This document shows positions 7,628 through 19,551 of a stretch of DNA of 35,818 nucleotides, piece by piece. The notes under the pieces are model-generated. The model was not told where the DNA came from. It did no database searches and was given only the letters and a program-made list of their open reading frames with translations. The stretch spans positions 1 to 35,818 of the forward strand of contig JAIOPN010000035.1 of NCBI GenBank assembly GCA_021413865.1, given 5' to 3'. The position numbers and the translations under genes were made by a program. This DNA comes from Planctomycetota bacterium (GTDB lineage Bacteria; Planctomycetota; Phycisphaerae; Phycisphaerales; Phycisphaeraceae). How positions within the stretch are numbered: position 1 is the stretch's first letter; every line of letters begins with the position of its first letter.

Positions 7628-8908
7628 ATGAAGACAGCGACCTCCAAGCTCGCCATCAACGGCGGCAAAAAATCCGTCCCCGAGGACCTCAAGTTTCACG
7701 TCTGGCCCGCCGTCGATAAGGACGACGAGGAGATGGTCCTCGCCTCCCTGCGCCAGCCCAGCCACGCGTGGGGCCCCAACTGCGTCAAGCTCCAGGAAGA
7801 ATGGGCGGCGTGGAACGGCAACAAGTTCGTCGCCGCCACCAACTCCGGCACCGCCGCGCTGCACATGGCCATCGCCGCGTGCGACATCGGCGCCGGCGAC
7901 GAGGTCATCACCACCACCCTCTCCTGGACCAGCACCGCCACCAGCATCCTCCACCACAACGCGATCCCGATCTTCGTGGACGTCGAGTGGAAGACCATGC
8001 TGATCGACCCGGCCAAGATCGAGGCCGCGATCACCCCCAAGACCAAGGCCATCATGCCCGTGCACTACTGGGGCGTCCCCTGCGACATGGACCCGATCAT
8101 GGACATCGCGCGGCGCAAGGGGCTGCACGTGATCGAGGACGCCTGCCAGGCGCACGGGGCGCGGTACAAGAAGCGCAACGTCGGCACCTTCGGCAACTGC
8201 GCCGCATTCAGCCTCAACCAGAACAAGAACTTCTGCGGCGGCGAGGGCGGGCTCTTCTGCACCGAGGACGAGCAGATGCACGTCAAGGGGCGGGCGCTCA
8301 TGAACTTCGGCGAGATGCGTGCCCCCGAAGCCAACCGCGACTTCCACGCCTACGGCATGGGCTGGATGTACCGTACCAGCGACCTGCCCGCGGCCTTCTC
8401 CCGCAGCCAGCTCAAGAAGCTCACCGCCACCAACGACCAGGCACGCGCGAACTGGAACCGCGTGCACAAGGGCCTGGCCGGTGTGCCGAACATGGTCCCC
8501 TCCTTCAGCACCGCCGATCAGGAGACCAACGGCTACGCCTACGTCGTCCGCCCCGACCCCGCGTATGCCAACCGTCGCGGCGTGAAGATCGGCGACCTGC
8601 GCGACGCGGTCGTCAAGGCCATCGTCGCCGAGGGCGTCAACGTCGGCGGGCCGCGCTGGATGCTCCCGGCCCACACCGTCTTCCAGGCCAAGAACGGCTA
8701 CGGCCACGGCTGCCCCTGGACTTGCAGCTTCGCCCGGCCCAACATCAGCTACGACCTCTCCCAATACGAGGTCGGCACCCAGTGCATGGAGAGCACCATC
8801 TGGCTCTCGGTCAACACCCACCGCCCGCCCAACGGCCCAGAGCAGTGTGACGCCGTCATCGCCGGCATCCGCAAGGTGTTTGAGAACATCGACGAGGTGC
8901 CCGTTTAG
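7628..8908 (+). CDS. DegT/DnrJ/EryC1/StrS-family PLP aminotransferase
   Basis: A 426-residue PLP enzyme of the sugar/aminocyclitol aminotransferase family. G-T-A-A-L-H (74-79) binds the cofactor phosphate, V-I-E-D-A-C-Q-A-H-G (168-177) carries the Asp facing the pyridine nitrogen, and N-Q-N-K-N-F-C-G-G-E-G-G places the Schiff-base lysine at K200. The usual S-F-H-x-x-K is replaced by S-L-N-Q-N-K. GGAG lies 8 bp before the ATG at 7628. Typical roles are in nucleotide-sugar or surface-glycan synthesis, but no other such genes are next to it, so the substrate is open. Confidence 0.87.
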   Translation: MKTATSKLAINGGKKSVPEDLKFHVWPAVDKDDEEMVLASLRQPSHAWGPNCVKLQEEWAAWNGNKFVAATNSGTAALHMAIAACDIGAGDEVITTTLSWTSTATSILHHNAIPIFVDVEWKTMLIDPAKIEAAITPKTKAIMPVHYWGVPCDMDPIMDIARRKGLHVIEDACQAHGARYKKRNVGTFGNCAAFSLNQNKNFCGGEGGLFCTEDEQMHVKGRALMNFGEMRAPEANRDFHAYGMGWMYRTSDLPAAFSRSQLKKLTATNDQARANWNRVHKGLAGVPNMVPSFSTADQETNGYAYVVRPDPAYANRRGVKIGDLRDAVVKAIVAEGVNVGGPRWMLPAHTVFQAKNGYGHGCPWTCSFARPNISYDLSQYEVGTQCMESTIWLSVNTHRPPNGPEQCDAVIAGIRKVFENIDEVPV

Positions 8909-10053: not shown

Positions 10054-10127
10054 GGGCCATTAGCGCAGTTGGCTAGCGCGCTTCCTTGACATGGAAGAGG
10101 TCACTGGTTCAAGTCCAGTATGGCCCA
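10054..10127 (+). tRNA. tRNA-Val (anticodon GAC)
   Basis: The cloverleaf folds completely: acceptor GGGCCAT with ATGGCCC, D stem GCGC/GCGC, anticodon stem CTTCC/GGAAG around loop TTGACAT (anticodon GAC at 10088-10090), T stem ACTGG/CCAGT around TTCAAGT, discriminator A at 10127. CCA is not encoded. Its last 15 bases belong to the att core of the element that follows, so integration restores an intact tRNA. The minus-strand integrase gene overlaps it from 10101. Confidence 0.97.
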
Positions 10128-11393
10128 TTGGTTACGTTCGCAATTTCCCGCAACCTCCCGCAACTCCCGCGAATCACAGGCATCTACATCATTTCCCGTT
10201 TTCCCCGCTATCCGTGGTTGCGGGTCGTTTTCTGTCGTTCGGTGCAATGACTGTGCCGGATTCTGTGCCGCGCTGTCGGCGCCCGTCGCGGCGTCGAAGT
10301 GGGCGTCTCTCGTTTGCAGGTAGTGCGTCGCCGCGATCAGCGGGGAGTGGCCCAGCCATCCCGCGACGACGTGATTCGGGAACCGCTCCACCCAATCGCA
10401 CGCGCACGACGCCCGCAAATTGTGGAAAAGTCTCGGCCATGGTTTCTCCCCGGCGCGGTTGATGATCTTGTGCAGGGTGGTCCGCAGGTTCATCCCCGGC
10501 GTGTGCAGCCTGGGTATCACGGCCTCGGTCGTGGTGGGATCCTCGGGGTCAAACGGCGCGGCTTGCTCGAACAGCGTCAACAGGATCGGGCGCAGGTCCG
10601 GCCCGATCGGCACGACGCGCACCGCGTGGCCCTCGTGCCCGGCGGTCTTGGGCGAGCGTACCGTCAGCCGTGAGCGCTCCCAGTTCACATCGGCCCACCG
10701 GAGCCCCATGATCTCCGACGGGCACCGCAGGCCCGCGTAGCGGCTCAGCGCGACGACGGCTCGCCACTGTTGATCGGGACAGGCGTTGAGCACCGCCGCG
10801 ATGGTCGCGCGGCTGACGTACCTCGAGCGCTCGGGGTTGGATTGCGAGCCGGTCCGCAGGTCGGCAAACGGGTTGGCGGTCAGCAGCCCCCACCGCACCG
10901 CCTTGGCGAAGATGGCCTTCGCCACCCGCACCCGCTTGGCGACGGTCGCGCCGGCCAGCTTCGCATCGACGATGGACTTCCTCCACCCGTCAGCGTCCGC
11001 CGCGGTGATGGACTCGAGCGCCCGCCCGCCGATGTACGCCCGCAACGAGTCGGTCGTCTGTTTGTACGCCAGCAGCGTTACGGGCTTGACGGTGGCGTTC
11101 TTCGTGAAGCGGTCGAGTAGGTCCGCGACGGTGCCGGCGCCGCCGGCGGGCTTGGTCAGCCCCACCGCCACGAGCCGGGCGCGGAGGGTGTCGCCGATGC
11201 CCTCCAGCCACGCCAGCGTCTCGGCCCTGGGCGTGCCGTTGCATGACTTGGCGGCGATCAGGTCGTCAACAAACCCGCGCACCCGCTCGGCGTTCCTCGC
11301 GGTCATGTCGCCCAACCGGATCGTCTTGCGCTTCAGGCCGTCGGTGAACAGGATGCGCCGCCGGCCGCTTGCTTCGGTGTTGATCGTGCTCAT
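10101..11393 (-). CDS. int: Tyrosine site-specific integrase, 3' end running into tRNA-Val
   Basis: A 430-residue phage-type integrase. The N-terminal half is SAM-like DNA-binding sequence. The catalytic domain is complete: R223 (G-L-R-C-P-S-E), K249 (S-P-K-T-A-G), H324-x-x-R327 (H-N-L-R), H349 (W-L-G-H-S) and nucleophile Y358 (T-H-Y-L-Q). It should recombine attP with the tRNA-Val 3' end. Residues 420-427 (R-N-Q-W-A-I-L-D) are encoded by the att core, and the last three residues plus TGA by the antisense of the tRNA. In the excised circle the frame would continue into the open frame at the other end of the element. Its ATG overlaps the stop of the upstream Xre gene (ATGA). Confidence 0.93.
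   Translation of the reverse strand: MSTINTEASGRRRILFTDGLKRKTIRLGDMTARNAERVRGFVDDLIAAKSCNGTPRAETLAWLEGIGDTLRARLVAVGLTKPAGGAGTVADLLDRFTKNATVKPVTLLAYKQTTDSLRAYIGGRALESITAADADGWRKSIVDAKLAGATVAKRVRVAKAIFAKAVRWGLLTANPFADLRTGSQSNPERSRYVSRATIAAVLNACPDQQWRAVVALSRYAGLRCPSEIMGLRWADVNWERSRLTVRSPKTAGHEGHAVRVVPIGPDLRPILLTLFEQAAPFDPEDPTTTEAVIPRLHTPGMNLRTTLHKIINRAGEKPWPRLFHNLRASCACDWVERFPNHVVAGWLGHSPLIAATHYLQTRDAHFDAATGADSAAQNPAQSLHRTTENDPQPRIAGKTGNDVDACDSRELREVAGNCERNQWAILDLNQ
10113..10136. other. attL: attL core (24-bp direct repeat, left copy)
   Basis: The core begins GTCCAGTATGGCCCATTGG and ends GTTACG. Its first 15 bases are the T-stem 3' strand, acceptor 3' strand and discriminator of tRNA-Val. An identical copy lies at 19246-19269. 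Similarity continues imperfectly to the right of both copies because integrase 3' ends lie there in both places. Confidence 0.9.
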
Positions 11394-11620
11394 GGCTTAC
11401 TCCGTTTCTTGAGGCGGGGCGAGGGTTTCAACTCGATGGTGTGACCGAGTGCGCGGGCGAGGGTTTCGGCGCTCTCGAACATCAGCCCCCGCTCTTTGCG
11501 GAGCAGGCGGGAGATGGCGCTCTTGGCGATGCCCGTCTCTCTGGACAGCGCCCCGATGGTGCGGCCGTCGCGTCGGATCAGGGCGGCCAGTTCGTCTAAT
11601 ACCTTTGGCATGGCTTTCAT
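11390..11620 (-). CDS. Xre-family helix-turn-helix regulator
   Basis: A 76-residue single-domain DNA-binding protein. The HTH lies about 20-57 (I-G-A-L-S-R-E-T-G-I-A-K-S-A-I-S-R-L-L), followed by E-S-A-E-T-L-A-R-A-L-G, the classic Cro/cI-type order. The ATG at 11620 is preferred over an upstream TTG because GGAG stands 8 bp before it. The stop overlaps the integrase ATG by four bases, so the two are translationally coupled, and it probably controls int expression. A terminator lies just upstream, so this pair has its own promoter. Confidence 0.85.
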   Translation of the reverse strand: MKAMPKVLDELAALIRRDGRTIGALSRETGIAKSAISRLLRKERGLMFESAETLARALGHTIELKPSPRLKKRSKP

Positions 11621-11667
11621 CTTATCGACTCCGTAGCCCGGTGGCAACAGCAATTTACAGGGAATCT

Positions 11668-11700
11668 AAAAAGCCCGGCCGGCTCATCACTTCCGGCCGG
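11668..11700 (-). terminator. Rho-independent terminator of the element operon
   Basis: On the minus strand, CCGGCCGG, a 10-nt loop and CCGGCCGG form an 8-bp GC stem followed by GC and five T residues. It lies 38 bp past the stop of the small membrane protein and separates the long operon from the xre-int pair. A further stem, TGCGGC/GCCGCA (11707-11722), precedes it. Confidence 0.7.
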
Positions 11701-11738
11701 ACAGGATGCGGCACACGCCGCACCCGCGCGGTACTGGA

Positions 11739-11864
11739 TTAGAACAAGTGGAGCACGGCCACCGCGATATACATCGCACACACCAGCATCACCGCCACCG
11801 CGCCGATTAGCGCGGCTCCGATGGCGTCCACTGTGTTGATGTCGTCTTCGTCGTTGAGGCTCAT
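11739..11864 (-). CDS. Small single-span membrane protein
   Basis: A 41-residue protein: acidic start M-S-L-N-D-E-D-D, then a hydrophobic helix at about 15-38 rich in Ala, Val, Ile and Met, ending H-L-F. An AAGGAG sequence 7 bp before the ATG at 11864 supports it as a real gene. It is the last gene of the leftward operon, before the terminator. The size and topology recall small phage membrane proteins (holin-like or superinfection-exclusion), but one helix is too little to assign a role. Confidence 0.7.
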   Translation of the reverse strand: MSLNDEDDINTVDAIGAALIGAVAVMLVCAMYIAVAVLHLF

Positions 11865-11945
11865 GTGAGGCTCCTTCGTTGAGTTGAGGTAAAAGCCCAC
11901 GCCGGCCGCGTGCGTAGGTCACGGCCGGCGCGGGCGAGCAAAGGA

Positions 11946-12479
11946 TCAGAGCCAGGGCAGGGGCTTCTGCTGCATGCAGTCCGCCACCCACGCGGCCAGC
12001 GCGGGCGCGCCGCCGATGCGGAGAAGCTCGCGGCCGTTGCCGATTTGCTCGCGCCACGCCTCGGATCCGCCCGTGCCGGCGCGGTTCAGGTGTTCGAGGA
12101 TCAGCGCCTCGTAATCGCCGGGCTCGCGCTCGACCATGTGTTCCGCGAGACCCTTCATGGACTGCGACCGGACACCCGCCGCTGCCCGGACCGCTTCGGC
12201 CCGCGCCGCCGCGCTCCGCTCGAACTCTGCCCGCTCGGCCGCGTGCCGCTTCTCGACCGCGCGCAGGTCGTCGCGTTGGTCCTCGTTCATCTCGCCCAGG
12301 CCGTCCTTGGCGAACGCCCGCAACGCCTTCGTCAGCTCGGCCGGCGTCTTGGGCAGTCGGTCACGCCGGGCCTCGCGGTCGGCCCGCCACCGGGCGGTCA
12401 ACGCTTCCGCGTTCACGCGCGCGTTGTGCTGCTGCGGCGTTTCCTGAAATTGTCCGGTCGTCGTGTTCGTCGTGCTCAT
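11946..12479 (-). CDS. Hypothetical protein with charged helical centre
   Basis: A 177-residue protein with no recognised family. Residues about 20-110 are very rich in Arg, Ala and Glu and likely form long helices or a coiled coil (R-A-V-E-K-R-H-A-A-E-R-A-E-F-E-R). The C-terminal part is shorter and ends K-P-L-P-W-L. AAGGAAG lies upstream of the ATG at 12479. It lies between the M41-like peptidase and the small membrane protein in the same operon, so it is probably a module protein of the element, perhaps structural or scaffolding-like. That role is a guess. Confidence 0.65.
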   Translation of the reverse strand: MSTTNTTTGQFQETPQQHNARVNAEALTARWRADREARRDRLPKTPAELTKALRAFAKDGLGEMNEDQRDDLRAVEKRHAAERAEFERSAAARAEAVRAAAGVRSQSMKGLAEHMVEREPGDYEALILEHLNRAGTGGSEAWREQIGNGRELLRIGGAPALAAWVADCMQQKPLPWL

Positions 12480-12548
12480 ACTCTGCTTCCTTGCTTACTC
12501 GCCGCTGAACCGCGCGGCTCCGGTTGCGGAAATGCTCCGCGTGAATCG

Positions 12549-13610
12549 TCAAAAGTTTTTCGGTATGCCTCTTGCCCACGGCCAGCCCTTATCGCCAGCC
12601 AGTCGCGCTTTCCAAAACGCGGCCTCCATCTGCTCGTCGTAATCGCCACGGTGGTACGCGACGACGGTGGCGACGGTCTCGCCGCTGACCTCGCCGTCGT
12701 CGTACAGCAGCTTCGCCAGGCCACGGATTGCGAGATAGTTATCCTGCACGCACCGCTGCGCCAGCTGCCACGCCTGGGCGGTTTCGTCGCCGTATTCCGC
12801 AACGTCTTTGCCGTGGTAGGCGGACACGGCCGCGAGGAACTGCGGGCCGTCGGCGTGCGGGCCGTGATCCTGCATCCGCGAGGATGTAGCCCCGCCGACG
12901 ATTACCTCGGCTTCTGCGCCGGCGCTAGTGGAGATCGCCATCAGGTCTTGCCGACCCTCGCTGCGGTACTGGCAAAGACCACTCCGCCCGCCTGCATCCA
13001 CGCGGGCAAACTTGACGTTGCCCGGCATTAAGACCTCCATCACGCAGGCGTGACCGGCTTCGTGAGCGGCGACGATCCACTTCTCGCGGTCCTCGGCTTC
13101 GCGGTGGTCGCCGTCGTTGAGGGTCAGTGCCGCCGTGAGGCTCGGCTCGCCCAGCCCGTGCCCAGGGCGTTGACGGTCGGCCTGGTCCCTCCTGACCTTG
13201 GCGAGAAAATCGAGGTGCCCTTGAATCTTCCGCTTCAACTCGCGGTCCTGCGCGGTCGATCGCGGACCGGGTGTTGCCGCAGGCGGAGCGCCGGCCGATG
13301 GCCGAACGCCCGCCCACGGCAACGGAATACCCGGCTCGGGCATCGGCTCGCCGCTGTCGATGATGCGCTGGCGTTCGGCCTCGATCGCCGCGCCTGTAAC
13401 GTCGCGGACGCCGCGACGATGAAGCGCGCCGACGATCCCGATGGTGTTCGCCTGGTGCTGGCGAAGCTCGGCCATCGCCGCGAGGATGATCGGGTCATTC
13501 GCGGGGGCTCCGCGTAACCTGCCCGCCACGAGAACGAGGGAGGCGGGACCGCCCCAGAAACCAGTGGGTGCGGTCGGACGGGGGGGCATGGGGGTGATGC
13601 GGGTGGTCAT
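12549..13610 (-). CDS. Stand-alone M41-like (FtsH-type) zinc peptidase
   Basis: A 353-residue protein starting at the ATG at 13610 (AAGGAAA upstream). The key signal is V-A-A-H-E-A-G-H-A at 181-188, with H183-E184-x-x-H187 as zinc ligands and base. This H-E-A-G-H form is typical of FtsH peptidase domains (family M41). The following A-G-A-E-A-E-V-I-V-G-G (230-240) and the Asp-bearing H-A-D-G-P-Q-F (252-258) match the FtsH order of G-G-R-A-A-E-E and S-N-D-L. No AAA+ ATPase domain and no membrane anchor are present. Residues 1-120 are Pro/Ala-rich. It could process element or helper-phage proteins. The substrate is unknown. Confidence 0.7.
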   Translation of the reverse strand: MTTRITPMPPRPTAPTGFWGGPASLVLVAGRLRGAPANDPIILAAMAELRQHQANTIGIVGALHRRGVRDVTGAAIEAERQRIIDSGEPMPEPGIPLPWAGVRPSAGAPPAATPGPRSTAQDRELKRKIQGHLDFLAKVRRDQADRQRPGHGLGEPSLTAALTLNDGDHREAEDREKWIVAAHEAGHACVMEVLMPGNVKFARVDAGGRSGLCQYRSEGRQDLMAISTSAGAEAEVIVGGATSSRMQDHGPHADGPQFLAAVSAYHGKDVAEYGDETAQAWQLAQRCVQDNYLAIRGLAKLLYDDGEVSGETVATVVAYHRGDYDEQMEAAFWKARLAGDKGWPWARGIPKNF

Positions 13611-13635
13611 GGTGATTTCCTTTTGTGTGGGTTGG

Positions 13636-14916
13636 TTACTTGAACGCATCCTCGGTAACGACCGTGACGGTGACGCCGGTACCCTCTTTGTTGTTGAGCT
13701 TCTGTAGCTCCTCGTACTGCTTCTTCGCCACATCAAGCTGTGCCTTCGTGTTCGCCTCAGCGGTGTCGCGCCGTGGGGCGCTGGACGCATAGCCGGTGGT
13801 GAACCGCACCTGCTTGAAGGCGAACGTGTTCGGCGCGTCGGTGTTCGCGCTTGCAAGGTCGATGTTCGCGGCGCGCACGGCGCGGGCGTAGGTGTCCCAG
13901 TTGATGGCCCCGGCGTTGAGCAATTCCCCGAGCCGGTCGATCGCGGCCTCGTGCTTTTCGAGAGGGGTGCGGGTGGCGTCGTAGACGGATTTGGCGTCTC
14001 TGGCGATCGCGGCCTGCGCGTCAGCGACCCTTTTGGCCGACTCCTCCAGCGAGTCGAGGCGGGCTTTGTAATCGTCGAGTTGCACGCCGACCCCCGGACC
14101 GAACGCATCGACCGCCGCCTTGCGCATCGCCTCGAATGGGGTCACGCCGAACTGGTCAACGCTCCTGAAGAAATCGTCGAGCTGGTCGCGCAACGGCTTC
14201 AGGGAGGTGGCCTTGATCTCGTTCTGCGTTGTTCGCAGCAGGTCAAGTGCGCCCGCCCGGATGGCGTCGATTTGTTCCGAGAGCGCCGCGATGCCGCCCG
14301 GCGCGATGTTCATACGCGACAGCTTCTCCATCACCTTTTGAAGCTCAGCCCCCTTGTTGATGGAATCCTCGAAAGCGCTCTGCGCGGCGGCAAGCTGCTT
14401 TTGTTCGGGCGTAGCGTCGGACGCCTGGATGCGGGCGCGGGCAAGGTCTGTCACGATGTCGCGCGCCTTTGTCGCCGCGCCGGTGTATTCGGCCAGTGCG
14501 GCGGCGCTCTTCTTGTTGGCCTCGATGGTTTTTGTGGTGAACTCCTCAACCGTCATGCTGCCGGTGGTCCACGCCACGAGCATCTCGCCGATCTTCGTGC
14601 CGGCCTTGAAATACTCGCCGAAGACGGGAATCGTTCCGGCGATGGCGCTGCCTAAACCGATGCTCGCCTCGGCCGCGTCTAGCTCCCCCTTGCGGAGCGC
14701 CTCCATCGTGCTCCGGGATTCGTCCAGCGCGCGGTTGAGGCGCTTGCCCGCAAACTCCAAAATCGCGCCGGCCGCGCCGCCCTTGATGAATTCGAGGGAC
14801 AGCCCGCCCGTTCCTTCGGTGAGCCGGCGCGTGGTTGCGGCCGCCTTGTTCATTTCGTTGGTAAACGCGGCCGTGTTGGCAGAGAGACCGACAGCTAGGT
14901 TTGCGATGAGTGCCAT
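13636..14916 (-). CDS. Tail tape-measure-like protein
   Basis: A 426-residue, mostly helical protein. The N-terminus (A-N-L-A-V-G-L-S-A-N-T-A-A-F-T) resembles the start of tape-measure-like phage proteins, followed by hydrophobic Gly/Ala segments (about 45-57 and 85-100) and long charged helices. True tape measures are often over 600 residues, so this may be shortened or a related morphogenesis protein. Its ATG lies one base after the terminase small subunit stop, with AGGA inside that gene's 3' end, which implies coupled translation. In normal phages the head genes lie between these two. Confidence 0.45.
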   Translation of the reverse strand: MALIANLAVGLSANTAAFTNEMNKAAATTRRLTEGTGGLSLEFIKGGAAGAILEFAGKRLNRALDESRSTMEALRKGELDAAEASIGLGSAIAGTIPVFGEYFKAGTKIGEMLVAWTTGSMTVEEFTTKTIEANKKSAAALAEYTGAATKARDIVTDLARARIQASDATPEQKQLAAAQSAFEDSINKGAELQKVMEKLSRMNIAPGGIAALSEQIDAIRAGALDLLRTTQNEIKATSLKPLRDQLDDFFRSVDQFGVTPFEAMRKAAVDAFGPGVGVQLDDYKARLDSLEESAKRVADAQAAIARDAKSVYDATRTPLEKHEAAIDRLGELLNAGAINWDTYARAVRAANIDLASANTDAPNTFAFKQVRFTTGYASSAPRRDTAEANTKAQLDVAKKQYEELQKLNNKEGTGVTVTVVTEDAFK

Positions 14917-14917
14917 G

Positions 14918-15427
14918 TCAGGATCCTTTTGGGGTGGGGTTTTTGCTCGCCGTCTCGGTGAGGTAGTTGTTAATCGTGTTGCGGTTTAAGAACTCGGCCA
15001 GCATGTCACGGGCCGGCGTGACGGGCAGGTCCAATCGCTGCCGCGACAAACTCGTCAGCCCAAAGTGCCCGGCGAGTTGAAGGTAGAGCGATGCGGCCTG
15101 CGAAAAAATCGCGTTCGCGGGATTCGACTTCCGAAGCTCAGCCGTTGCGTAGGTGATGCCGTTTTCGCGCAGGGCATCCGCCGCGGCGCGCATCACGCTG
15201 TAGGTCTCGGCCGTCGCCTCGAGCGCCGGTTCGTCGATCGCCATGAAGACGCCGCTTTGAACCAGGGCCGGCGCGACCCTCCGCCAGAATTCCTTTGCGC
15301 AGTCCGTCAGGTGCTCGGGCGGTTCGGCCGAGCCGGGGGTGAGCCCGGTGGTTTTCGGTGCCGGCTTCCCTCGCGTCGAGCCGGCGAGTCGAAGGGCGCG
15401 CGGTTTTGGATACGGTCCTGGTGCCAT
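14918..15427 (-). CDS. terS: Phage terminase small subunit, P27 family
   Basis: A 169-residue protein with the P27-type layout: P-K-P-R-A-L-R-L-A-G-S-T-R-G-K-P near the start, E-F-W-R-R-V-A-P-A-L, A-L-E-A-T-A-E-T-Y, then N-P-A-N-A-I-F-S-Q-A, Y-L-Q-L-A-G-H-F-G-L-T-S-L-S-R-Q-R-L. Small terminases recognise the packaging site on DNA and hand it to the large subunit. No large subunit gene is nearby. The ATG at 15427 overlaps the TAA of the upstream gene (TAATG), and AAGGAG stands before it. A terS without terL is what satellites such as PICIs carry to redirect helper packaging. Confidence 0.85.
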   Translation of the reverse strand: MAPGPYPKPRALRLAGSTRGKPAPKTTGLTPGSAEPPEHLTDCAKEFWRRVAPALVQSGVFMAIDEPALEATAETYSVMRAAADALRENGITYATAELRKSNPANAIFSQAASLYLQLAGHFGLTSLSRQRLDLPVTPARDMLAEFLNRNTINNYLTETASKNPTPKGS

Positions 15428-15879
15428 TAGTTGGTCTCCTTGGTCAAATTGAGGGGGAATTCACCCCGAAACTCAGCGGCGCGCGTTTCACGGAGGCCAG
15501 TCGGTACTTTTTTGAGGGGTTGCAGATTCCTCGACCGGATAATGGGGGGTGTGCCCGCCTCGCCTGCGTCAACCATGCCGCGTCGCGTCGGCGCGTCCGA
15601 CCCGTTGGCCACCGCATCGGCCGACGCATCCTGGGGCAGCGTGGTGGTGATGGTGGGCGTAAACAATTGTTTACGTTTGCCGAGTGGCGCGGTGGTCACC
15701 TTGTTGGACAACGTGGTCAACAAGGTGGGCATCGTGGTGGTGGTGGTTGCCTGCTCGATGCTCTCGCACCGAATGCCGCATCCTCGGCTCGCATACTTCA
15801 GCAGGCGCTTGAGCGCGGACACCTCATTGACGCCACGCATCGGGACCATGCGCAGGATGTAGGTGGGTTGGGTATTCAC
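15427..15879 (-). CDS. Hypothetical protein, conserved-looking N-terminus and Thr-rich tail
   Basis: A 150-residue frame starting at GTG 15879, which overlaps the upstream stop as GTGA. Residues 1-45 (Y-I-L-R-M-V-P-M-R-G-V-N-E-V-S-A-L-K-R-L-L) have the look of a small module placed near replication genes in planctomycete mobile elements, recalled rather than searched. From about residue 46 the sequence becomes low-complexity, with T-T-T-T-T and T-I-T-T-T runs, and its DNA carries an 18-bp perfect palindrome and a 10-bp inverted repeat. The C-terminal part may therefore be loosely constrained or overlie control sites. No function is assigned. Confidence 0.55.
   Translation of the reverse strand: MNTQPTYILRMVPMRGVNEVSALKRLLKYASRGCGIRCESIEQATTTTTMPTLLTTLSNKVTTAPLGKRKQLFTPTITTTLPQDASADAVANGSDAPTRRGMVDAGEAGTPPIIRSRNLQPLKKVPTGLRETRAAEFRGEFPLNLTKETN
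15658..15675. repeat. 18-bp perfect palindrome inside an element gene
   Basis: CGTAAACAATTGTTTACG is a perfect palindrome and AT-rich in a GC-rich setting. About 20 bp further, CACCTTGTTG (15697-15706) and CAACAAGGTG (15718-15727) form another perfect inverted repeat. Both lie upstream of terS in the direction of transcription, so they may be operator sites for the late genes. Confidence 0.45.
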
Positions 15880-16469
15880 GCCAGCGCCCCCGCCGTCGCG
15901 CCGGTCTTGTTCCTGTGCGCCTCGAAGATTCGTTTCGCGGACGCCTCCCCGCCGTCGCGGATGAACTGCTCGCGGGCCTCGGCCGTGTGCGACCGCGTCT
16001 CCACCGGGTCGGTGCGGACGCCGGCGGCCACAAGGGCACGCATCCACGCCTGCCAGAACGAGACCGTCGAGACCGACGCGGGCCCGTAGGTTTGTGTCGC
16101 CCTCCGAAAATCCATCTCGGCACGCTGCACGCGGGCGTCGGCGTCGCTCATTGCGTCGGCCTGTTCCTTCACCACTCCCGCCACCTGCAGCGCGGCCTTA
16201 TCGAGATGGCCCTGGGTCACGATGACGCGGGGCTTGCCGGAGCCCCCAGTGGTCTTCGCATGACGCCGCAGGGCCTCTCTCAACTCGCTCGGCTTCGGAG
16301 CCCATTTGAGGGTGTCCATCAGCCCGCGAAGCGCGCGGATGATGGTGTCGTCGTCGTGGCCGTGCATGGCACGCTTCCACGCCAGGGCGGTCTCGTGGTT
16401 CATGTCGTCGCCGGCCATCTTCGGCCAGCACTGCCCCATCACGCTGAACGGTCGGCTTCGGTCACTCAT
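15876..16469 (-). CDS. Possible helicase-loader-like (G39P-type) replication protein
   Basis: A 197-residue protein whose ATG at 16469 overlaps the stop of the initiator-like gene (ATGA). The N-terminal 70 residues (W-P, W-K-R-A-M-H-G-H-D-D-D-T-I-I-R-A-L-R, A-P-K-P-S-E-L-R-E-A-L) follow the pattern of phage G39P/loader proteins: a short helical domain with W...L, a run that drives A-L-x-x-L, and a P-x-x-x-E/D-L end. The rest is helical with no recognised motif. Position after a winged-helix initiator-like gene fits a loader for the host DnaB helicase. Moderate to low certainty. Confidence 0.5.
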   Translation of the reverse strand: MSDRSRPFSVMGQCWPKMAGDDMNHETALAWKRAMHGHDDDTIIRALRGLMDTLKWAPKPSELREALRRHAKTTGGSGKPRVIVTQGHLDKAALQVAGVVKEQADAMSDADARVQRAEMDFRRATQTYGPASVSTVSFWQAWMRALVAAGVRTDPVETRSHTAEAREQFIRDGGEASAKRIFEAHRNKTGATAGALA

Positions 16470-17029
16470 TGGACGGTCTCCATTTTTTCGGCCTCGTTGG
16501 CGAGGCGGACCATGCGTTCGCCGGCGGTCTCGGTCTTCCGTGAAGGGGAAGAAACGCCGGCGGGCGGGCTTCCTCTCTTCCCTCTCTTCATCTCTTCCTC
16601 TATTGGGGTGACACTCTGTGTGTCAGGGTTTCGCTCATGGATGTCAGGGTTTCGACCTCCAGGTGTCAGGGTTTTGGTACTCCGGATGTCACCCTTTCCC
16701 GCTTCTCCATCGCTAGAAACGGTGACACTCTGGGTGTCAGGGTTTGTGTTGAGCGTGTAGGTGTTGGCGCGGTGCCGTCCGCCGCCGCAGACGATGGTGA
16801 TGTGACCATTGGCGGCCAGCTTCCTGAGTGCCCGCTGCGCCGTCCGCTTGCTCTTCTTCATCAGCCCGGCCACTACCTCGATGCTGGGGTAGCTGCTCCA
16901 GGCTTGGCGGACATGCACGGCCACGGCCAGGTATGCCCGCAGCTCCGCGCAGCTCATCCGGGCGATGGCGTCCGTCTTGGTAAGACGCTCATGCGGGAGG
17001 CGGCCGAAGAGGATGGTGTCCTCGCTCAC
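16466..17029 (-). CDS. Winged-helix replication-initiator-like protein
   Basis: A 187-residue protein starting at GTG 17029, overlapping the upstream stop as GTGA. Residues about 25-90 form a winged helix (A-E-L-R-A-Y-L-A-V-A-V-H-V, P-S-I-E-V-V-A-G-L-M-K-K-S-K-R-T-A-Q-R-A-L-R-K-L, G-H-I-T-I-V ... N-T-Y-T-L) of the HTH_36 type common in phage O-like initiators. The second half is low-complexity and repeats N-P-D-T-Q-S-V-T, because the DNA there is built of spaced repeats. As in lambda O, the origin may lie inside the gene. The 3' end is a polypurine stretch encoding E-E-E-M-K-R-G-K-R-G. Confidence 0.7.
   Translation of the reverse strand: MSEDTILFGRLPHERLTKTDAIARMSCAELRAYLAVAVHVRQAWSSYPSIEVVAGLMKKSKRTAQRALRKLAANGHITIVCGGGRHRANTYTLNTNPDTQSVTVSSDGEAGKGDIRSTKTLTPGGRNPDIHERNPDTQSVTPIEEEMKRGKRGSPPAGVSSPSRKTETAGERMVRLANEAEKMETVQ
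16607..16745. repeat. Iteron-like repeats, candidate replication origin
   Basis: TGTCAGGGTTT occurs at 16621, 16642, 16664 and 16735, and the variant TGTCACCCTTT at 16687. Start-to-start spacings are 21, 22, 23 and 48 bp, about two helical turns each. The first and last copies share a 25-bp version (16607-16631 and 16721-16745) with one mismatch. A 30-bp pyrimidine tract (about 16571-16601) lies next to them. Regular repeats within an initiator gene are the hallmark of lambdoid and iteron origins. Confidence 0.65.
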
Positions 17030-17253
17030 CGGGCGCCCTCCCCGGTGGTGGTGACAGCCTTGGCGATTTCCTTCGCGATGAAGTCGCGCAGCCCCTCGGG
17101 GGAATACAAAATCCTCCCGCCGAAAACGAGATGGGGAACCTCGCCGCGCTTGCGCCTGTTGTAGAGGGTCTTGGGGGAGACTCCCAAGAGCCGCGCGGCC
17201 TCGGGCTCGCTGATGAGGAGCGGTTCGGGTTGTGGGGTGGCGGGCGTGCTCAT
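17026..17253 (-). CDS. Excisionase-like HTH protein (HTH_17)
   Basis: A 75-residue protein from the ATG at 17253, which overlaps the previous stop (ATGA). The domain L-L-I-S-E-P-E-A-A-R-L-L-G-V-S-P-K-T-L-Y-N-R-R-K-R-G (12-37) followed by P-H-L-V-F-G-G-R-I-L-Y is the MerR/AlpA/Xis-type helix-turn-helix of HTH_17. Such proteins act as recombination directionality factors or transcriptional switches in prophages and satellites (AlpA in P4-like elements). Which of the two adjacent HTH proteins is the excisionase is not decidable here. Confidence 0.8.
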   Translation of the reverse strand: MSTPATPQPEPLLISEPEAARLLGVSPKTLYNRRKRGEVPHLVFGGRILYSPEGLRDFIAKEIAKAVTTTGEGAR

Positions 17254-17456
17254 CGTGCCACCGCCTCGCCCTTGCGGGCACGCTCGGCGAGCACGGCGCG
17301 GGCGTCGGTGATGCTGACCAGCACCCGCCGGCCAGCATGTAGCGACGGAACACGGCCGGCCTCTACCTCGCGGCGCAGCCATGCGGCCGGGACGCCAAGC
17401 GCCTCAGCCGCCTCGATGGTCGGTACAAACTCGGGTGTAGTTTTCTCGCCGTGCAT
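17250..17456 (-). CDS. Second HTH_17-type DNA-binding protein
   Basis: A 68-residue protein with T-I-E-A-A-E-A-L-G-V-P-A-A-W-L-R-R-E-V-E-A-G-R-V-P and H-A-G-R-R-V-L-V-S-I-T-D-A, the same fold as its downstream neighbour but clearly diverged. It is the first gene of the tightly overlapping operon. The ATG at 17456 lacks an obvious Shine-Dalgarno sequence, and the 93 bp before it probably hold the operon promoter. The paired small HTH genes may bind as a heteromeric or sequential switch. Confidence 0.75.
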   Translation of the reverse strand: MHGEKTTPEFVPTIEAAEALGVPAAWLRREVEAGRVPSLHAGRRVLVSITDARAVLAERARKGEAVAR

Positions 17457-17549
17457 GCATAAAGCATCGGCGAGTAAATCAGAATGTCGCGGGCGGGGCC
17501 TCTCGCGTTGCGCTTATTGGCGCGCCTGTGACGCCGCGTTGCGCATATT

Positions 17550-18164
17550 TCACTTCAAATCTTGCGAGTACCACTGTTGCACGTCGCTGTGTTTGTAGCA
17601 AACCACGTTATCAATCACCTTCTTCTCAACTCGTTTTGTTTTTCGCGTCGGACTCGATGCCATGCGAAGCTTGCTGGCTATTTTGCCAGGGTACGCCGAT
17701 GCCGGTCGGTAGTCGTCTGCGATCTCTGATGCCGCCTCGCTTGCCGCCAGCGCCATCTGCCCCAGCACCCACGCCGACTTCTCCGCCGCGCCGGGGATTG
17801 ATATTTCCTCGAACGCCACAAGCGCCGCACGCTTGCCTTTTCCGCTCACCGCCGCGTTGTGGTGCGTCTTGCCCTTGTGCCAGACCATCGGCGTGCGGGC
17901 GTCCGCGTACATGTCGGCGGGCGTGGCGTCGAGTACCAGCCGCAGCCACCGCTCGACGGGGCGATTGCCCGCGACGCCATCGACCAGCCGCACGGCATCA
18001 CCCACCAACATCTTGAACCGCGCCAGCCACTCCCTCGACGGGAACCCGGCCACGCGGATCGACTCCTCATCACCGACGCGGCAATACTCGATGCGCGACG
18101 GGTCGCCGTGTTGTGCAAGCTCGCGGAAAGCCTGGGCGAGACGGTCGTAATTTGATGGTGACAT
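17550..18164 (-). CDS. Hypothetical protein with possible C-terminal DNA-binding module
   Basis: A 204-residue protein. The ATG at 18164 has GGAG 8 bp upstream and is preferred over earlier in-frame starts. Residues 1-90 are helical (D-R-L-A-Q-A-F-R-E-L-A, W-L-A-R-F-K-M-L-V-G-D-A-V). Residues about 165-204 (I-A-S-K-L-R-M ... V-E-K-K-V-I-D-N-V-V-C-Y-K-H-S-D-V-Q-Q-W) look like the end of an HTH_17-type domain, where a helix pair is followed by a strand and D-V-x-x-W. It could be a regulator made of a sensor part and this module. No family recognised. Confidence 0.6.
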   Translation of the reverse strand: MSPSNYDRLAQAFRELAQHGDPSRIEYCRVGDEESIRVAGFPSREWLARFKMLVGDAVRLVDGVAGNRPVERWLRLVLDATPADMYADARTPMVWHKGKTHHNAAVSGKGKRAALVAFEEISIPGAAEKSAWVLGQMALAASEAASEIADDYRPASAYPGKIASKLRMASSPTRKTKRVEKKVIDNVVCYKHSDVQQWYSQDLK

Positions 18165-18333
18165 GACACGTTCTCCATCGGGCGACTCCGGGCGGGACAC
18201 GCGGAACGTGTATCACGCGCCCGCCCGAAGTCTTCCGGCGAGGATCAGTCGCCGGCCCACACACAAAACTACCGTCGAGACCAAGCCGCAACAAACCCGA
18301 CCGGCCGCTTTGGCGCTAGCGGCACGGGTGTTA

Positions 18334-18380
18334 ACCGGCGGTTGTGACTTTGGCAATTTTGCCGAAGTCAGTCCGCCGGT
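18334..18380. repeat. 47-bp two-part hairpin in the element
   Basis: Inner arms TGACTTTGGCAA (18345-18356) and TTGCCGAAGTCA (18359-18370) pair with one G-T mismatch around two T bases. Outer arms ACCGGCGG (18334-18341) and CCGCCGGT (18373-18380) pair perfectly. It lies between genes, 18 bp past the stop of the 133-residue protein and 170 bp before the next gene on the minus strand. It could be a terminator without T run, an operator, or a structured RNA. Confidence 0.55.
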
Positions 18381-18398
18381 CGCGGTCTTGAGATTCGC

Positions 18399-18800
18399 CT
18401 ACGCCTTCCGCGCCTCACCCGCCTCTTGGATGCTCCGCGCCTCGCGGGACCAGTTGCACACCATCCGCCGGACTTGCTGAATCCCCGGCGGCTCGGGCAG
18501 CAGGTGCCCAAGGTCGCGGATCATGTTGGACAGGTCGCACTCGAGCTCCACCATGTCGCCGTGGACGCCGTCGGTGAAAGCCCGGTCGGTGCCGATGTAC
18601 CCCTGCTCTGTTGATTCAAGGAACGCCAGCAAGTCAATCACCGACTGGATGCGCTCCCGCAGCTCAAAAATCAGCAGCGCCCCCGTCCGCACCGAATGCG
18701 GGTTCGGGTCTGGATGCAGAAACATGTGCGCATCATCGCCATCGACAAAGGCGTTGACTCGGGTCGATTCGCTCTTCGCTCGTTTCTTGGACTTGGACAT
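18399..18800 (-). CDS. Hypothetical protein
   Basis: A 133-residue protein beginning with a basic stretch (M-S-K-S-K-K-R-A-K), then an acidic and helical body (F-E-L-R-E-R-I-Q-S-V-I-D-L-L-A-F-L-E-S-T, D-M-V-E-L-E-C-D-L-S-N-M-I-R-D-L-G-H-L). GGAG stands about 9 bp before the ATG at 18800, and the G/C-ending codon pattern supports a real gene. No motif, membrane segment or family is recognised. It is flanked on both sides by strong hairpins, so it is probably its own short transcript. Confidence 0.6.
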   Translation of the reverse strand: MSKSKKRAKSESTRVNAFVDGDDAHMFLHPDPNPHSVRTGALLIFELRERIQSVIDLLAFLESTEQGYIGTDRAFTDGVHGDMVELECDLSNMIRDLGHLLPEPPGIQQVRRMVCNWSREARSIQEAGEARKA

Positions 18801-18840
18801 GCTGCACTCTCCTTGCTCGGCCGGCGGTTTAGTTGCCCCA

Positions 18841-18871
18841 CAACACCCCCGGCCGGGCGGGTGGGGTGTTG
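18841..18871. terminator. Hairpin after the integrase-extension frame
   Basis: CAACACCCC (18841-18849) and GGGGTGTTG (18863-18871) form a perfect 9-bp stem around a GC-rich 13-nt loop. It begins two bases after the stop codon of the minus-strand frame ending at 18874. No T run follows, so termination may be Rho-dependent or the hairpin may protect the 3' end. Confidence 0.45.
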
Positions 18872-18873
18872 GG

Positions 18874-19284
18874 TCATGCTGGGGTGTCGTCGTCGCTTAC
18901 GAGGCGTAGGACGGGCTTGGCGGCCGTCGTGGGTTGCTGGCGGTCCGCCAGGGATCGGCTCAGCGCCAACACGAAAGAGGCGGTCTCGGTCCGCAGGGCG
19001 TCCGCTACTTTGTTGATGGCGTCGCGTAGGTCGGGGTCGATGCCCGCGCGATCCTCCAGGCATTCGATGAACCCGTGCAGATAGGGCGTGGATTCTGTTT
19101 TCAGGTGCTCCACAATCCGCCGGAGCAGGTCGTCTCGCTCAGTGGCGGGAGGTAGCCGCAGCGTCAGCGGCGCCGGGTGTGCCGGATTTTGTGCCGCCTC
19201 GGTCGTGGACTGCGTTATTTCTCGGGGATTACCGGGGGGGTGCGGGTCCAGTATGGCCCATTGGTTACGGTCGTCATTTCCCAC
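18874..19284 (-). CDS. Open frame without internal start, in phase with int across att
   Basis: The frame covers 136 codons if read from a GTG at 19284, outside the element and without a ribosome site. Inside the element it has no ATG and no convincing start. Residues 6-13 (R-N-Q-W-A-I-L-D) are the att core in the same phase as in the integrase. The remaining 123 residues have strongly G/C-biased third codon positions and predicted helices (R-D-D-L-L-R-R-I-V-E-H-L, L-R-D-A-I-N-K-V-A-D-A-L). Joining the element ends would make it the C-terminal extension of the integrase (427 + 123 residues). As an independent gene it would need a start supplied by the flank. Confidence 0.6.
   Translation of the reverse strand: MGNDDRNQWAILDPHPPGNPREITQSTTEAAQNPAHPAPLTLRLPPATERDDLLRRIVEHLKTESTPYLHGFIECLEDRAGIDPDLRDAINKVADALRTETASFVLALSRSLADRQQPTTAAKPVLRLVSDDDTPA
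19246..19269. other. attR: attR core (24-bp direct repeat, right copy)
   Basis: It is identical over 24 bases to 10113-10136. To its left is element sequence. To its right is the 3' end of a decayed integrase gene homologous to int, so the repeat is followed by further similarity. Confidence 0.88.
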
Positions 19285-19551
19285 AACTGTCCGTAACTTT
19301 AGAGAAGCGCGCTCGTTTACAGCGTTTCCTAGGGTTCCCGCTATCGCTGGTTACGGGCTGTTTTCTATCGTTCGATGCAACCACTGTGCGGACTCTGTGA
19401 CGCGCTCTGCGCGCCCGTGGCACTCAACACCGCCGTGATGGTCTCGCTGCTGACGTACCTCAATCGCTCGGGGTTGGCCTGTGAGCCCGCCCACAGATCT
19501 GCGAACGGCGAGACGAGGATCAGCCCCCGCCGCGCGGCTAAAACAGGTACC
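19270..19551 (-). pseudogene. Remnant of a second tRNA-Val-type integrase
   Basis: Minus-strand translation gives R-R-G-L-I-L-V-S-P-F-A-D-L-W-A-G-S-Q-A-N then P-E-R-L-R-Y-V-S, matching residues about 165-204 of the intact integrase. It then jumps to T-G-A-Q-S-A-S-Q-S-P, matching residues about 370-380. About 165 codons with most catalytic residues are missing, and in-frame stops and a one-base shift follow. Its last codons (V-V-G-N-D-D-R-N-Q-W) mirror V-A-G-N-C-E-R-N-Q-W of int and enter attR. The 5' side ends against the GH95 gene stop. It is a relic of an earlier element at the same site. Confidence 0.85.

Follow-up and report, generated by a model that had tools for sequence, protein, structure and literature searches.

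An attachment site inside the integrase gene of a planctomycete element: a probable switch of the integrase C-terminus on integration

The 35,818-nt stretch of DNA analyzed here (the window; contig JAIOPN010000035.1 of a Planctomycetota bacterium) carries an integrated element of 9.1 kb (10113-19269) that sits at the 3' end of a tRNA-Val gene and is bounded by two exact copies of a 24-bp attachment (att) core, GTCCAGTATGGCCCATTGGTTACG (Table 1); a repeat check across the window found no third copy. The element encodes a tyrosine integrase (PF00589 in Pfam, E 1.2e-9; phrog_1, E 4e-39), a small helix-turn-helix (HTH) protein and a phage terminase small subunit. The integrase gene crosses the left core as R-N-Q-W-A-I-L-D and terminates as ...RNQWAILDLNQ, with its stop codon within the tRNA-Val antisense, in a frame and at coordinates that agree with an earlier note on this DNA. 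Residues matching the R, K, H-x-x-R, H, Y motif are present, and we take R223, K249, H324/R327, H349 and Y358 to be the likely catalytic ones. When attP is formed in silico, the core falls inside the integrase open reading frame (ORF), downstream of the catalytic Tyr; the split lies beyond the catalytic residues, as the same note had claimed, and the catalytic and N-terminal parts remain together in the prophage copy.

At the other end of the element, a frame of 123 codons leaves the right core in the phase of the integrase, while the remaining two phases run into stops after 9 and 4 codons. Once the ends of the element are joined in silico, a single open frame of 550 codons (427+123) followed by a stop results, and the attP junction contains neither a stop nor a frameshift, which bears out the fusion on circularization that had been proposed. 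Integration, reconstructed in the same way, exchanges the 123 codons for the host-derived L-N-Q. The earlier description of the extension as lacking a start of its own also stands: ATG is absent from it, and no clear ribosome site was found ahead of the GTG codons at positions 44 and 91 or the TTG at 92 (0-based). A coding score trained on four window ORFs taken as genes, the integrase among them, reaches +11.7 nats in phase, while none of the other five frames exceeds -13.8.

Table 1. Features of the integrated element and its surroundings in the window.
Feature	Coordinates	Strand	Evidence	Remark
tRNA-Val(gac)	10054..10127	+	ARAGORN	attB target; intact when the element is integrated
Tyrosine integrase, 430 aa	10101..11393	-		427 codons precede the core; tRNA antisense then supplies L-N-Q and the stop
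Left att core (attL), 24 bp	10113..10136		exact repeat	tRNA 3' end is its first 15 nt
Arm-like repeat, integrase side of core (TGTGCCGGATTCTGTGCCGC)	10252..10271		19/20 match to 19178-19197
Small HTH protein	11390..11653	-	Pfam HTH_26/HTH_3, E 3e-5	overlaps integrase start by 4 nt
Phage terminase small subunit	14918..15427	-	Pfam PF05119, E 6e-18; phrog_83
Split-off C-terminal extension, 123 codons + stop	18874..19245	-		open in integrase phase
Arm-like repeat, extension side of core (TGTGCCGGATTTTGTGCCGC)	19178..19197		pairs with 10252-10271
Right att core (attR)	19246..19269		exact repeat of left core
Relic of an older related integrase	19246..19538 (about)	-		chromosomal side of attR

Relatives of the window integrase occur in the same genome and at 10 loci in a search of genome contigs; within the family, 29 of the 51 genomes, its own included, hold one at E<=1e-40. 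A survey starting from the integrase (int-first) comprised 57 loci, reduced to 56 when one with an open end (L083) was dropped; L071 and L098 are the same place, as are L073 and L099, and L008-L010 were excluded as partial. An att pair was accepted when a repeat of at least 13 nt lay at a tRNA-like 3' end, and 21 loci qualify. The 13-nt repeat of L087, which is not at a tRNA, was discarded, and repeats of 11-12 nt were not accepted, among them the 12-nt repeat within the tRNA at L095, which gives just 18 codons. L062 showed no accepted repeat in its first stretch, has a 28-nt repeat when paired with L177, and was counted in the second survey described below. Four loci (L057, L079, L086 and L093) were accepted without an ARAGORN call, their cores being read as tRNA or transfer-messenger RNA (tmRNA) 3' ends; those of L086 and L093 presumably belong to tmRNA, for which ARAGORN made no call in the stretch scanned.

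The integrase stops within the antisense of a tRNA gene in 37/56 int-first loci, and seven more ORFs contain a whole tRNA; the other 12 consist of four with an accepted att pair at a tRNA-like core and eight with neither. In all 21 accepted elements, the rejoined integrase frame stays open for 55-123 codons past the core. A leave-one-out profile of the tail domain, EXT, recognizes the in-phase tail in 17 of the 21 at E<=2e-5 (weakest L082, 1.1e-5), and none of 105 other frames reaches that value (best 9e-5). The four below the cut-off are the window element, L054, L067 and L092. In L067, a separate small minus-strand ORF just downstream of the extension ends in EPVLRLVGEEEPEPPPEPAA, which resembles the extension ends of the window (KPVLRLVSDDDTPA) and L054 (PALRLADSDDRPA).

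A second survey started from the tail (ext-first). The EXT profile matches 122 of 392 sampled Planctomycetota genomes, with at most 15 candidates scored per genome, and among the matches listed most hits lie in short open frames. Forty loci were taken, with further stretches for 13; EXT was found again in 38, of which 23 were testable, in that an integrase ORF traverses an att repeat, and 15 were set aside (att repeat missing, integrase ORF not intact, or a contig end). All 23 are in phase (13/13, 9/9, then 1/1, the last being L177 with the L062 integrase). Together with the int-first elements, the phase is shared in 44/44 testable elements; several loci are related (e.g., L166 and L174), and the counts are not fully independent. 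The window-family profile recognizes some ext-first integrases strongly and others only weakly, so that they fall into at least two groups. ARAGORN calls the tRNA genes at these sites as Ile, Val, Met, Ser, SeC, Ala, Gly, Leu, Lys and Glu; L172 has no call at its core, which is nearly identical to the tRNA-Gly core of L171. At L160, apparent tandem elements (7694-8863, 15398-17149) occupy a tRNA-Ser, and at their inner junction an integrase fragment of the neighboring element is joined to EXT in one frame.

EXT has no counterpart to speak of in the databases searched. Against Pfam and PHROGs, no family matched in more than one of 15 members, at E 0.01 or worse, and a sequence search of the PDB returned one insignificant match. 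For the window tail alone, AlphaFold2 (AF2) predicts three helices (34-50, 54-67 and 71-102) with modest confidence (mean predicted local distance difference test, pLDDT, 71.6; predicted template-modeling score 0.33). An EXT-like match also lies at the C-terminus of a primase-like protein (AEP-TOTE; L161:7269-8711), and EXT may thus not be confined to integrases.

An undivided version of the gene was found on a 43-kb IMG/VR viral contig, where a single 574-codon ORF encodes an integrase (Pfam domain at 197-390), a linker with an att-like peptide and EXT. It is flanked on both sides by terminase, helicase, primase-like and sigma-factor-like genes, so it does not lie at a chromosome junction. 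The free integrase with a homologous extension that the earlier note had suggested looking for therefore has a representative on a phage contig, though none from the window's own subfamily. Used as a query against viral contigs, the 574-aa gene returned four loci: two come from the virus sequence that carries the query itself, L183 is truncated where its contig ends, and L184 lacks a tail. No relatives were found on viral contigs with the window integrase or the window extension; of four further tail queries, one led to four loci and three to none. A phage search gave two weak Thermus matches with the integrase and none with the tail, and a plasmid search gave none. AF2 models the 574-aa protein with an integrase fold, for which the Brujita, XerA and lambda integrases are the best Foldseek matches, a region of very low confidence (419-533) in which the att-like peptide lies, and a helical hairpin at the C-terminus (539-568; block pLDDT about 59-82) that rests on little alignment, 2/11 rows holding EXT. 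The linker between the catalytic domain and EXT is probably disordered in the light of this model.

The DNA around the core shows a further recurrent feature. In the window element, a 20-nt stretch on the integrase side recurs with 19/20 matches on the extension side, a match that none of 12 shuffles reaches. The same holds in 20 of 21 int-first elements, L093 being the exception: a 20-nt stretch located 105-162 nt from the core on the integrase side recurs 61-89 nt away on the other side, with 17-20 matches, a sequence that differs between elements and no equal in 12 shuffles. Both copies lie within the coding region. In 15/21 the distance between the copies is not divisible by three, which marks them as a DNA feature, and they account for look-alike peptides such as AAQNPA on either side of the window core; the conserved stretch of EXT begins past the repeats. 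These repeats look like putative arm-type integrase sites. In phage Mx8, arm sequences within int reportedly flank the core; the repeats of the window element, read from sequence, are candidate counterparts. L154 has a second, non-core repeat that is arm-like and out of phase.

At the level of sequence, these comparisons establish the architecture and its conservation across Planctomycetota. Architecture and regulatory step taken jointly, a switch with attP inside the integrase gene is the best explanation and, in our judgment, a probable one; in our reading, it is a form of the Mx8 int-attP switch that appears to be widespread among planctomycetes and has a tail domain not described before. 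In such a switch, attP, consisting of the core and arm-like sites on both sides, would lie within the integrase gene, in the stretch that codes for the linker after the catalytic domain and ahead of a small helical domain at the C-terminus. As long as the element is circular, the gene would be whole and give rise to a long integrase (550 aa in the window element), which would recombine the attP of its own gene with a tRNA 3' end and thereby split the gene after the catalytic domain. The integrase made by the prophage would then be short, its catalytic residues intact and its last few residues supplied by tRNA antisense, the tail would be stranded at attR without a clear start, and excision would restore the long form. 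By analogy with Mx8, we infer that the long form is made for integration and that the short one is less active or differently directed, which would correspond to the insertion and lysogenic forms suggested earlier. The state of the DNA would in this way be written into the enzyme, as the available text on Mx8 reports for that phage. The HTH gene next to the integrase could supply a repressor or a directionality factor.

A fuller model is advanced tentatively, and we would slightly sooner doubt than accept it. Planctomycete phages and small satellites would carry a complete attP, arms included, in a disordered linker; the EXT hairpin would act as an integration module present only in the free state; direction would be set by a covalently rewritten enzyme; and the insertion sites (tRNA or tmRNA) would have evolved into the linker sequence.

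Several results weigh against the switch or its generality. Eight of the 56 int-first integrases lack both an accepted att pair and a tRNA where they stop. Open-frame length is weak evidence, because 6/42 shifted frames are equally open for at least 55 codons in this GC-rich DNA. The window extension itself matches EXT weakly (leave-one-out 2e-4, against 6e-4 for one shifted frame), and a search of 400 genomes of its order, among them its own, turned up nothing besides itself at E<=1e-3; its best relative, in the extension of L054 (40% over 56 aa), is weak at E 0.003, although it occupies the matching position in another element of the same genome. For the window tail, the homology evidence is thus weak, and the case depends on its phase, its coding signal, the weak L054 relative and the company it keeps. 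As for the unsplit gene, its att site is inferred from the linker, whose match to tRNA-Thr antisense is modest (21/23 nt, E 0.002), no unsplit long gene of the window's own subfamily was found in these searches, and L184, a viral relative, ends at 392 codons without a tail, so that the integrase-EXT layout is not universal.

Among other explanations, the one that survives best accepts the shared gene and takes the split as neutral: attP would have arisen where an ancestral gene overlapped a tRNA-like sequence, both forms would work alike, and the tail would be under selection only for some task in the free element, for instance in folding or DNA binding. The prophage copy does retain the catalytic domain with its residues, and with a linker modeled at very low confidence, removing the tail could leave the core undisturbed. 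However, the Mx8 integrase is described, in the available text of PMC4701971, as less active after the same change, and a tail conserved at the protein level across a phylum is unlikely to be lost at every integration without effect. We regard a neutral split as unlikely, if far from negligible.

The tail could instead be a degradation tag, so that integration would stabilize the protein by removing it. In the integration-dependent immunity of mycobacteriophage BPs, the split gene is that of the repressor and the lost tail is such a tag. The geometry is the same (PMC4557955, in its available sections), but the 21 tail ends lack a common C-terminal motif, only one of them ending in AA, and the tail is predicted to be helical, with conserved W, P and L, rather than a short tag. 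This candidate was rejected on the absent terminal motif, and we consider it very improbable.

Harder still to credit is a purely DNA role, in which the extension region would be the P arm of attP and would look coding on account of repeated arm sites. Arm-like repeats on both sides of the core in 20/21 elements, and the look-alike peptides that they create around the window core, speak for it. Yet the EXT motif lies beyond the repeats, and its phase is kept even where arm spacing is not a multiple of three. Moreover, identity at the three codon positions of EXT is 0.47/0.55/0.37 against 0.32/0.27/0.32 expected (59 sequences, 32 columns); with positions 1 and 2 well above expectation and position 3 near it, EXT looks selected as protein.

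Least credible of all is an independent small gene of the element, in which the tail would start on its own and share the phase by chance: the GTG at codon 44 of the window extension, in-frame ATG codons in 11/21 int-first extensions and the EXT-like match in the primase-like protein are compatible with it, but no start codon at a constant position was found among the int-first extension homologues, an unsplit gene exists on a phage contig, and 44/44 loci in phase together with the leave-one-out profiles led us to reject chance. Of the two observations that the earlier note had named as fatal to its proposal, a stop or frameshift at the attP junction (here joined in silico) and a conserved start in the extension homologues, neither was found.

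Integrase homology does not end at the right core of the window element, a point the earlier note had missed. The relic found there consists of tail and middle pieces of an integrase in different frames, with an internal deletion between them and one stop; the two pieces show 49% and 54-60% protein identity and 76% and 78% DNA identity, and the relic tail meets the right core in the same phase as the integrase. On the simplest reading, an older element of the same kind sat at tRNA-Val and decayed, and the present one was inserted between the tRNA and the scar; the relic beside attR would thus be a sign of repeated tRNA-Val use by related elements. As to cargo, the HTH protein is possibly a repressor or directionality factor, and no capsid gene was recognized with Pfam and PHROGs among the ten reading frames scanned, which are part of the element's ORFs. 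The 9.1-kb element may be a phage satellite, a class that includes the phage-inducible chromosomal islands, to which it can be likened.

A layout otherwise known from Mx8 and a few other elements appears to be a common integrase design in a whole bacterial phylum, one that involves a conserved domain virtually unmatched in Pfam and PHROGs. The many natural pairs of long and short integrases would be suited to testing how the direction of recombination is controlled. In practical terms, many annotated integrase genes in planctomycete chromosomes are probably truncated products, and EXT fragments next to tRNA remnants can mark element ends.

No description of a planctomycete integrase containing attP was found in the literature; subscription journals lay mostly outside the search, and such a description may exist. 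The systems compared here are taken as they appear in the available sections of the cited papers. Archaeal SSV-type 'suicidal' integrases also have their att site within the integrase gene, which integration splits (PMC8371274), and the likeness that the earlier note drew to them holds to this extent. However, in SSV-type integrases an N-terminal part is split from the catalytic part, which is held to inactivate the enzyme, whereas the window integrase keeps its catalytic part whole and loses only a tail, making Mx8 the closer parallel. The same review describes self-disrupting recombinases as exclusive to archaea (PMC8371274), a statement that the planctomycete layout goes against. In streptococcal integrative and conjugative elements that target rumA, att likewise lies in the integrase gene and the excised form has a different C-terminus (PMC4701971), but the enzyme is a serine recombinase and the target is another one. 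Mycobacteriophage BPs shares an attP within a coding gene whose product changes on integration (PMC4557955).

The nearest known system is thus that of Mx8, given as the example of the very few integrative elements with attachment sites inside integrase genes, in which integration exchanges a 112-residue C-terminus for 13 residues and leaves an enzyme described as less active (PMC4701971) and, elsewhere, as altered in specificity (PMC6070905); the Islander paper likewise notes that the Mx8 and SSV integrases extend across attP (PMC4383910). Mx8 (intP/intX) and the window element have in common a tyrosine integrase, an attP in the coding sequence and a long C-terminus that becomes short on integration, and in the Mx8 record an att-like peptide can be seen by eye ahead of the long tail. 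They differ in that the Mx8 integrase is just a distant relative of the window family and its tail has no EXT homology, the best domain match (independent E-value 0.18) falling at 105-118 of Mx8 Int, outside the tail. Furthermore, whereas Mx8 is a single phage case, the planctomycete elements are spread over a phylum and over many tRNA genes.

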